The notes beneath the pieces were generated by a model. The model did not search any database. It was given only the letters and a program-made list of their open reading frames with translations, and was not told the origin of the DNA. A DNA stretch of 61,016 nt, taken from NCBI GenBank assembly GCA_947588655.1, contig CANPYS010000006.1:1-61016 (forward strand), written 5' to 3'. A program made the position numbers and the translations under genes. This document shows positions 776 to 28,710 of this stretch, one piece after another. Every line of letters begins with the position of its first letter. Position 1 is the first letter of the stretch. The DNA comes from an uncultured Alphaproteobacteria bacterium (GTDB lineage: Bacteria; Pseudomonadota; Alphaproteobacteria; RF32; CAG-239).

Positions 776-1008
776 CGTCATACTGAGGACTTTAGTCCGA
801 AGAGTGACGTAAAATAAAAATCGTCATTCTGAGGCGGTTTACCGCCGAAGAATCCAGATGGAAAAATATAGCTAATTTGTTGTCCTGGACTCTTCGCTGA
901 CGCTCAGAGTGACGACGGGAGAGGTGTTCTGGACTCTTCGGACTAAAGTCCTCAGAGTGACGACGGGAGGGGGTCTGGACTCTTCGCTGACGCTCAGAGT
1001 GACGGTGG
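776..1008. repeat. Cluster of five dispersed palindromic repeats (CGTCACTCTGAG-hairpin-CGAAGAGTCCAG)
   Basis: Copies at about 776-809, 822-860, 881-918 (inverted), 926-967 (inverted), 974-1008 (inverted). Further copies at 20.8 and 60.6 kb. Confidence 0.85.
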
Positions 1009-2325: not shown

Positions 2326-3180
2326 CTATTTTTGCTTAACAACGCAACTGCCGCCCGCGTTTTTGATTTGCGCGCACAATGCATCGGCATCGCTTCTGTT
2401 TTCAAAATCGCCGGCTTTTAAGCGGTACATGGTGCTTTTGCCATTTTCAGCCGCCTCAACTTCATGAGGCAAATCTTTTAAGATGGCATACTTTTTAACT
2501 TCTTCATCCCAAGATTTTTCAACAGCGCTTTTGTTTGCCGACGCCACAAGCTGAACCTGCCAATGCCCTTTAGAAACCGCCGCCTTGGGCTCCTCTGTTT
2601 TTGGCTTTTCTTCAACAGGAGCTTGAACCTCTGGCAAAGCCTTTTCTTTTATGACGTTTGATGAAATGTCTTTGGGCTTTTCGGGAATCTTGATTTTTTG
2701 ACCGTCTGTTGCTTCCACCGCCTCAATTTTTTCATCTAAAGGTTTAACGTTAAGCAAATCGGCATTCGCGTTTTTAGACTTTTCAGAAGCGCTGATTTCA
2801 GGCAATTTGGGCGTTTCAGGCTGTGGCAACAAACTCTCAGGCAAAGAATCTTCAACTTTTTTCTCAACTAAATCATAAACCGATTTATCTTGATTAGGGA
2901 TAATCATTCCCCCTGGATCATTGGGTTGAACCTTTACAGGCGTCAGCGGCCGCTTGATTAACGGCAACTCGTTTGACGATTCACTCATCTTTGGCAACAA
3001 AATAAACCAACTGACCACCGCCGCGAGTGCCACACCCGCTAAAGTGCCAATAAAACCGTTGCGCGAACGCTGTAATTGCATGCGCCGATTTTCATATTCC
3101 TCGGCACGTTGCGCCGCAATTTTTTGCTTGAATTCGCTTAAATATTCGTCTTCATGCTCGTTTTGATAAAGTTTAAACAT
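2326..3180 (-). CDS. SPOR-domain membrane protein
   Basis: Single TM helix, Pro/Glu/Lys linker, C-terminal WQVQLVASANKSAVEKSW...YRLKAGDFENRSDADALC SPOR-like domain. Confidence 0.8.
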   Translation of the reverse strand: MFKLYQNEHEDEYLSEFKQKIAAQRAEEYENRRMQLQRSRNGFIGTLAGVALAAVVSWFILLPKMSESSNELPLIKRPLTPVKVQPNDPGGMIIPNQDKSVYDLVEKKVEDSLPESLLPQPETPKLPEISASEKSKNANADLLNVKPLDEKIEAVEATDGQKIKIPEKPKDISSNVIKEKALPEVQAPVEEKPKTEEPKAAVSKGHWQVQLVASANKSAVEKSWDEEVKKYAILKDLPHEVEAAENGKSTMYRLKAGDFENRSDADALCAQIKNAGGSCVVKQK

Positions 3181-20696: not shown

Positions 20697-20808
20697 GCAT
20701 TTCCCTTCATTTGATTTTTGATTTGAAATTAACTTGCCCTCAAACTTAGAGCCATAAAAAACACCAAAAGTAATTGGTGTTTGGAAGGCGAGATAACATT
20801 CCCCACAA

Positions 20809-20893
20809 CGTCACTCTGACGACCGTAGGGAGGAAGAGTCCAGGACACCCCTCTCATCGTCACTCTGAGCGTCAGCGAAGAGTTTAGGACAAT
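20809..20893 (+). repeat. Two dispersed palindromic repeat copies
   Basis: cgtcactctgacgaccgtagggaggaagagtccaggaca and cgtcactctgagcgtcagcgaagagtttaggaca; same family as 776-1008. Confidence 0.85.
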
Positions 20894-20990
20894 AATTTAG
20901 CTAATTATCCCCAAAAAAAGTTTTTATACACTTCGCAATTTTCATAAATTAAAAAGCATCAAATGCCTTGAGACAGTTGACTTTTCGGGG

Positions 20991-21114
20991 TTTAAAAAAC
21001 ATTGAAAAAAAACGAACGTTAAATTTCAATGTTTTTAAATAAAGGATATTGACATTTTTAGAGCTTTCAGATAGATTGATTTCAGACGTTCGTTTTTTGA
21101 CAATGTTTTTTAAA
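20991..21114 (+). promoter_or_regulatory. Putative invertible promoter module 3, promoter facing the OMP gene (ON)
   Basis: 28-bp near-perfect inverted repeat 20992-21019 / 21086-21113 enclosing TTGACA (21049-21054), 17-nt spacer, TAGATT (21072-21077). Confidence 0.65.
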
Positions 21115-21157
21115 AAAAGAACGCTCTAAATGTTCTAACTTTATAAAGGAAACTGAT

Positions 21158-21886
21158 ATGAACAAAACATTATTGTTAGCAAGCGTCGCAACAGCTCTGT
21201 TCGCTATTAGCGCCAACGCAACAGATTTTAACCCTTATGTTTCAGCCAAAGCCGCTTATGGCTTTATGAGAAACAGTGTCAACTTGGGTATGCACTATGA
21301 TAGTGCTAAAGATCGTGATTACAACTACGAAAAAACACACAAAGATAACGTTTGGGGCTTACGTTTGGCCGCTGGTGCGTCAACACCTGTCACACACGGT
21401 AAATTGAGAGCTGAACTGGAATTTGGTTGGAATGACAAAGGTAAAGATTCCAAAGGTGAGTTTGTGTCAACACACGACAACAAGCCTTTACCTTACGACC
21501 TTGATAGCAAGGTAACTGTTTTTTCTAGCATGATTAATGTTTATTATGACATTGATACAGGCACGAAGTTCACACCGTATGTTGGTGCCGGTTTAGGTAT
21601 GGCTCATTTGAAGAACAAGGCGACAGTTTCAGCTTCTTTAGGTGGTCCTCTTTCTTTAAATGATACAGAGGAAGAAAATCATTTGGCATGGAACATTGGC
21701 TTTGGTATGAACTATGCTTTAACCGACAATCTTTCACTTGATTTAGGTTACAGATATAGTGATTATGGTCGTATCAAGAAAGCAATAAGTTATACCTTTG
21801 CTACTCCAAGAGGCACAATGTTTGCCGCGGCTAAAGTTAAAGTGACTGCGCACGAGGCTTTGCTTGGTGTTCGTTACGCTTTCTAA
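21158..21886 (+). CDS. Outer-membrane beta-barrel protein
   Basis: Signal peptide, YYDIDTGTKFTPYVGAGLGMAHL, NLSLDLGYRYSDYG, terminal LLGVRYAF. Confidence 0.85.
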   Translation: MNKTLLLASVATALFAISANATDFNPYVSAKAAYGFMRNSVNLGMHYDSAKDRDYNYEKTHKDNVWGLRLAAGASTPVTHGKLRAELEFGWNDKGKDSKGEFVSTHDNKPLPYDLDSKVTVFSSMINVYYDIDTGTKFTPYVGAGLGMAHLKNKATVSASLGGPLSLNDTEEENHLAWNIGFGMNYALTDNLSLDLGYRYSDYGRIKKAISYTFATPRGTMFAAAKVKVTAHEALLGVRYAF

Positions 21887-27494: not shown

Positions 27495-28160
27495 TTAAAA
27501 CGTGTATCTCACACCCAATGAAAGTTCGTGTGATTTGGCTTCATACTTATTAATAGAACTTGCATCTCTGTAGCTCACATGACCTTCGTCAATGTAACGA
27601 TAACCAAAATCAACATTGAAATTATTATTCAAGGCATAAGACACGCCGGCACCAATTTGCCAAGCAAAAGTATTGCGGCTATCGCTTGCGATTGCCGGTC
27701 TCTTGCTACCATCCTTTTCTACATAAAACCCTTCTTCTTGGGCTTCCAAGTGTGCAATACCAATACCTGCGCCAATATAAGGTGTAAATTTAGTGTCTGT
27801 GTTAATGTCATAATAAGCATTAATCATCGCAAATTTGTTTTCCACAGATAATTCTGCGGTGCTATATGGAGAACGAAAATCTTTTTTAGCATCTTTTTTT
27901 AAGTTTAATTCAAGTTCTGTTCGCACAGGACCCGCCTTGATACCATAAGCCAAACTGCCGCCCCAGACGTTATCAGAAAATTTGACACTACCTTTAGAAT
28001 TGTTATCCCAAAGTTTGGTATATCTCATATCATGTGAGGCAAAGCTATAGTTGACTTTTGCCGAAACATATTGCTTATAATCAAAATGATAATCAAACGC
28101 ATTGGCGTTGGCAGAAAAAATAAATGTCGCAACACCAGCAAGTAATAAAGTTTTTTTCAT
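27495..28160 (-). CDS. Outer-membrane beta-barrel protein, paralogue of 21158
   Basis: MKKTLLLAGVATFIFSANANAF, YYDINTDTKFTPYIGAGIGIAHL, LSLGVRYTF. Confidence 0.85.
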   Translation of the reverse strand: MKKTLLLAGVATFIFSANANAFDYHFDYKQYVSAKVNYSFASHDMRYTKLWDNNSKGSVKFSDNVWGGSLAYGIKAGPVRTELELNLKKDAKKDFRSPYSTAELSVENKFAMINAYYDINTDTKFTPYIGAGIGIAHLEAQEEGFYVEKDGSKRPAIASDSRNTFAWQIGAGVSYALNNNFNVDFGYRYIDEGHVSYRDASSINKYEAKSHELSLGVRYTF

Positions 28161-28552: not shown

Positions 28553-28710
28553 AAGGAAAATCAAGGGATAACGACAAAAATCAACTATCTCAAAAAAACG
28601 TACCTTTAAATGATACAATTGTCAAGTTTTTTTATTGTCGTAAAATCAAGCACTTAGGTTTTTAAAAATGCCCCAAAAAAATGCACATTTAAACGTACGT
28701 TAAAATTAGA
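28553..28710. promoter_or_regulatory. Putative invertible promoter module 2, core inverted relative to module 1
   Basis: Flank matches the reverse complement of about 691-745; core matches 599-686 in the same plus-strand orientation. Half-sites AAACGTACCTTTAAA and TTTAAACGTACGTTAAA. Confidence 0.65.

Follow-up and report, generated by a model that had tools for sequence, protein, structure and literature searches.

In the Hin/Gin systems, known from Salmonella flagellar phase variation, a serine recombinase of about 200 aa inverts a promoter, and a two-base central overlap is expected. Hin is encoded within the segment that it inverts, it switches a single target, and it depends on Fis and an enhancer. 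In Bacteroides fragilis, one serine recombinase, Mpi, inverts 13 regions that include seven capsule promoters (Coyne et al. 2003, as cited in PMC4747536), and the Mpi consensus is ARACGTTCGT (Coyne et al. 2003, via PMC8375218). The capsule promoters of B. intestinalis are associated with short GTTCGTTTAA inverted repeats that overlap the Mpi motif, and transcription start has been mapped inside the proximal repeat (PMC8375218). A partial search of the literature found no report of such a system in Alphaproteobacteria, and inverton surveys (PhaseFinder, PhaVa; PMC11868660) may include such loci uncommented.

Here we describe a locus from an alphaproteobacterium that, as judged from its sequence, belongs to a multi-promoter inversion system of the Mpi kind by enzyme family, recombination site, multiplicity and surface targets. 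The likeness to B. fragilis Mpi lies in the use of one small serine recombinase for many dispersed surface-gene promoters (presumably six here), in a recombinase of the same NCBIfam family and in the site core ARACGTTCGT, which is common to both. Whereas the B. fragilis system belongs to the Bacteroidota and switches capsule operons, the targets in this alphaproteobacterium are eight-stranded outer membrane proteins (OMPs), of which six were found, and one of the switches faces the gene of the invertase. The B. intestinalis capsule promoters start transcription in the proximal repeat, where the −10 hexamer lies here, but they serve capsule loci in another phylum and have a longer invertible segment (183–186 bp, compared with only 74 bp here). 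The resemblance to Hin/Gin consists of a recombinase of around 200 aa, promoter inversion and the expected two-base central overlap; in contrast to Hin, the invertase gene is outside the segments and many loci have a common site. What sets this case apart is that the targets are OMPs, that the segment is short and that the invertase may control itself.

The stretch of DNA analysed (the window, 61,016 nucleotides) is contig C6 of a 1.55-Mb genome assembled in 55 contigs. The genome contains an alphaproteobacterial-type tmRNA (RF01849), by which it is assigned to Alphaproteobacteria, and its small size together with the many MAG-like relatives suggests a host-associated lineage. The initial annotation had reported inverted 28-bp arms at 20992–21019 and 21086–21113, and these differ, as it stated, at exactly 2 positions in 28. 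The arms constitute the longest inverted repeat of the window among pairs within 5 kb. Under +1/−2 scoring the repeat reaches a score of 23 with 29-bp arms; when the window was shuffled 200 times under a first-order Markov model, the top-scoring inverted repeat of each shuffle averaged 12.7, and the highest reached 18. The promoter proposed for the 66-bp interior, TTGACA and TAGATT separated by 17 bp and facing the OMP gene at 21158, is also present, as a match to the sigma-70-like consensus only. An Rfam search of the window returned no RNA family. The features of the locus, in window coordinates, are as follows.

20991–21114, no strand assigned: the entire invertible promoter element (124 bp), present at six genome loci (own-genome DNA search and alignment)
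21000–21031, + strand: left recombination site, CATTGAAAAAAAACGA/ACGTTAAATTTCAATG, two 16-bp half-sites with the junction between GA and AC (half-site table over six elements, pattern search)
21016–21089, no strand assigned: segment predicted to invert, 74 bp, centre to centre (from the site centres)
21049–21054, + strand: −35 hexamer TTGACA, directed towards the OMP in the ON orientation
21072–21077, + strand: −10 hexamer TAGATT, which shares bases with the inner half-site of the right site
21074–21105, − strand: right recombination site, CATTGTCAAAAAACGA/ACGTCTGAAATCAATC on the reverse strand (half-site table and pattern search)
21145–21150, + strand: AAAGGA, the probable ribosome-binding site for the OMP gene (from the sequence)
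21158–21886, + strand: outer-membrane beta-barrel gene, 242 aa including a signal peptide, product predicted to be phase-variable (Pfam OMP_b-brl, 2.7e-17; eight-strand model; paralogues with variable outer loops)

Each arm of the inverted repeat contains half of a 32-bp recombination site, so that the inner ends belong to these sites, with which the −10 hexamer overlaps. As this hexamer extends into the inner half-site, transcription should start within the right site, at a predicted position of about 21084. The site itself is a pseudo-palindrome, ATTG-N9-GAAC-N9-CAAT, and a table over the six elements gives half-sites that begin with NATTG, the outer ones ending in SGA and the inner ones in ACGT. 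This pattern has exactly 12 matches in the genome, all of them within the six elements, and its reversed control has none; with a shorter site pattern, 12 of the 13 genome matches are sites of the six elements. Read on the other strand, the site core of the right arm, AGACGTTCGT, matches ARACGTTCGT exactly and the core of the left arm, TAACGTTCGT, is one position off, with ACGTTCC found on one side at the other element loci. The point at which ON and OFF copies diverge, taken with the general mechanism of serine recombinases, points to a crossover at the central AA. When we scanned a wider collection of genome contigs for paired sites, a collection that possibly excludes the organism's own genome, only four matches were obtained, in unrelated taxa and chance-like; viral contigs gave no match in the same kind of scan.

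Searching the organism's own genome with positions 20900–21160 revealed five further copies of the 124-bp element, on contigs C8, C40, C15, C5 and C13. The five are 89–96% identical to the window copy and lie the other way round with respect to the gene downstream; the sequence around them aligns directly. The 66-bp interior of the window copy (21020–21085) is identical to that of C40 at 66 of 66 positions when inverted and 39% identical when compared directly. The corresponding values for C8 are 98% and 41%, and the 66-bp outer flanks of the window and C8 copies are 94% and 98% identical in direct orientation. The site-to-site length is 78 bp in all six elements. In the assembly the window copy is ON, with its promoter directed towards the OMP gene, and the other five of the six are OFF, facing away from theirs. 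Both orientations of the segment are thus present, seen between paralogous loci; among 91 genomes, near relatives lack an orthologous element at these loci. Because the interior is reversed in the paralogues while the flanks stay direct, the alignments indicate that the segment has inverted. Together with the Mpi-type invertase gene that adjoins one of the five copies, this arrangement bears out the earlier proposal of a phase-variable invertible promoter upstream of the OMP.

The adjoining gene is found at the C13 element, which sits between an OMP gene and a divergent gene for a serine recombinase of 200 aa (C13:46534–47133). The protein scores 279.9 bits against the NCBIfam model PRK13413, "master DNA invertase Mpi family" (cut-off 272). 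Its start codon is 53 bp from the end of the element, whose promoter now faces the invertase gene, and between the two TTTTCA-17-TATAAT was noted by eye as a possible fixed promoter. None of the invertible segments contains the invertase gene. Homologues occur in 44 of 51 sampled genomes of the organism's family, the strict Mpi cut-off is passed in 7 of 290 genomes of the class, and named plasmid relatives, at 49–55% identity, are annotated Mpi-family invertases in Desulforapulum, Prevotella, Parabacteroides and others. In two relatives, G033 and G012, proteins 67–75% identical to the C13 enzyme adjoin elements of the same site type. The order OMP, element, invertase recurs in these two and in G050, and in all three assemblies the promoter, read by eye, always faces the invertase. 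The long site pattern identifies four sites in G033, which make up the only two elements found there, each beside an Mpi-type invertase gene, and three scattered single matches. It is plausible that a local switch between OMP and invertase spread to five further OMP genes in the present genome.

A second Mpi-like gene (C16:21454–22038) is intact and, at 297.7 bits, also exceeds the Mpi cut-off. A third (G000:C18:8808–9389) contains two in-frame TAA codons and is probably a pseudogene. The genome-wide pattern search placed no site of the ATTG-N9-GAAC-N9-CAAT type near either of them. With two other Mpi-like genes in the same genome, the assignment of the C13 invertase as the acting enzyme is inferred from its adjacency to an element. 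In some relatives (loci L110, L116, L119 and L123) an Mpi-like invertase gene is divergent from a gene for a second small serine recombinase, 26–28% identical, and an inverted-repeat element with an interior of about 105–130 bp lies between the two.

The initial annotation had also suggested that the repeat shares a recognition family with another repeat of the window, termed module 2. A partial resemblance exists, but the centre of module 2 is GTAC rather than GAAC and the site pattern does not match it; given these different central bases a shared family is not supported, and module 2 probably represents a different one. Inverted repeats with a GTAC centre (AAACGTACC / GGTACGTTT) form a second family, with members at window positions 28597–28704, at 2026–2135 of L014 (G000:C4) and at about 305–490 of L018 (G001:C98), and one such element adjoins an OMP gene at window positions 27498–28160. 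A different invertase, possibly the one encoded on C16, probably acts on these elements. Separately, a 30-bp inverted repeat, CGTCATACTGAGGACTTTAGTCCGAAGAGT, occurs at window positions 776–805 and 933–962; it resembles an interspersed intergenic repeat that partly recurs upstream of the element, at about 20808–20890.

Assembly breakpoints provided a further view of the sites. A k-mer assembler stops at a point from which the sequence continues in two ways, and the presence of both orientations would create such a point. In G033, contig C19 starts at GTTCGG, in the site core, and has exactly 77 bp in common with the end of contig C36, which carries the invertase gene and runs through the site in one orientation. 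Contig C2 of G017 starts at GTTCC, in the site core upstream of its invertase gene, and the end of C40 in the present genome is a 77-mer that starts at ACGTTC. We found no partner contig in the respective bins for the C40 end or for the start of G017 C2. The breaks in the two relatives and in C40 are in register with the crossover, which suggests, indirectly, that the reads contained mixed orientations.

We consider it highly probable (about 0.9) that the window element is a phase-variation promoter switch inverted by the Mpi-family recombinase encoded on C13, with 74 bp reversed between the centres of two 32-bp sites. In this mechanism the small serine recombinase would recognise the two inverted sites with their GA/AC centres and flip the DNA between those centres. 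The promoter would face the OMP gene at 21158 in the ON state and away from it once flipped, giving the OFF state, with transcription presumably following orientation. The same enzyme would act in trans on all six elements, so that about six beta-barrel surface proteins could be displayed in varying combinations. The C13 promoter would face either the OMP gene or the invertase gene; production of the invertase is probably tied to this one switch.

Alternatively, a dimeric protein that regulates the OMP promoter might bind the inverted repeat as its operator, with no inversion taking place. The sites are pseudo-palindromic and overlap the −10 hexamer, as operators often do, and the invertase itself might repress the promoter there. 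However, an operator leaves unexplained both the reversed 66-bp interior within direct flanks in five paralogous copies and the adjacent Mpi-family invertase. We regard it as highly improbable, and the opposite orientations among the paralogous copies lead us to reject the operator-only alternative, which the initial annotation had named as a finding that would count against it. We also considered whether the element could be a cis-regulatory RNA or the hairpin of a transcription terminator, but neither explains the reversed interior in the paralogues.

Two further explanations accept that the element has inverted. One assigns the inversion to the C16 Mpi-like recombinase or to another enzyme; in its favour are the C16 gene, intact and above the Mpi cut-off, and the Mpi-like C18 gene, although the latter bears stop codons. 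Yet an element of the window family adjoins only the C13 gene, no such site is near C16 or C18, and the C13-like proteins of G033 and G012 adjoin elements of the same type, so that an enzyme other than that of C13 is unlikely. The other explanation is that the copies spread long ago in both orientations and are now fixed, a frozen state with which one ON and five OFF copies are compatible. Against this, all six copies have kept their sites almost unchanged, the invertase gene is intact and contig ends in three genomes are in register with the crossover point. Moreover, the complete identity of the ON copy with the inverse of an OFF copy implies a recent flip. A fossil inversion thus seems quite improbable, and we infer that inversion is ongoing.

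Returning to a switch operated by the C13 enzyme, the position of its own element raises the tentative idea of a self-locking circuit. If the C13 promoter drives either the invertase or the OMP, one orientation would keep the six switches moving and the other would turn off the invertase and freeze the surface repertoire; such a circuit, under the same speculative joint reading, would be conserved in related genera. The weak fixed promoter beside the element may sustain basal expression of the invertase and so soften the lock.

Complete paralogous OMP genes, encoding 208–250 aa, lie downstream of five of the six elements. At the sixth, C40, the contig ends at about the OMP start codon, and a partial OMP copy at the end of C30 may be the missing gene. 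The OMP family occupies 14 places in the genome. The structure model of the OMP at 21158, with a mean pLDDT of 77, shows eight predicted strands in addition to a signal helix. Across 11 paralogues the mean pairwise identity is 67% near the periplasmic turns and 15% at the outer loops, a distribution as expected for an outer face under diversifying pressure. Among the solved structures closest to it in fold are NspA, OmpA and Ail, and the NCBIfam model for Rickettsia Adr matches below its cut-off. The OMP resembles these proteins in its small size, its eight predicted barrel strands and its variable outer loops, although its sequence identity to NspA, OmpA and Ail is 20% or less.

Other members of the OMP family have different upstream features. 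Homopolymers in the promoter spacer are present upstream of two paralogues (L168, G000:C3:9946–10578; L171, G000:C28:6140–6778), as G10 between TTGACA and TAGACT and as C8 just before TATAAT. A homopolymer in a promoter spacer is a mark of slipped-strand phase variation, and two mechanisms of OMP variation seem to operate in this genome. Four paralogues (L164, L165, L166 and L169) appear to have a long conserved 5′ leader, GGTTGATNACC...GAGG...CTTCCNGTCGCCTCTCATCAAGGCG, about 230 nt upstream of their start codons. The leader has no Rfam match in L165, L166 and L169, and in L164 it lies beside an alphaproteobacterial tmRNA match at 2501–3116; it is possibly an unknown cis-regulatory RNA.

In summary, a complete multi-promoter inversion system is recognisable from one draft genome of an alphaproteobacterium with a small genome, and its target sites match those of Bacteroides Mpi. 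The exact 32-bp site and the named enzyme are now testable. The system leads one to expect that these organisms have a set of phase-variable surface barrels and, if the self-locking arrangement is true, offers a circuit in which an invertase may control itself through its own switch.
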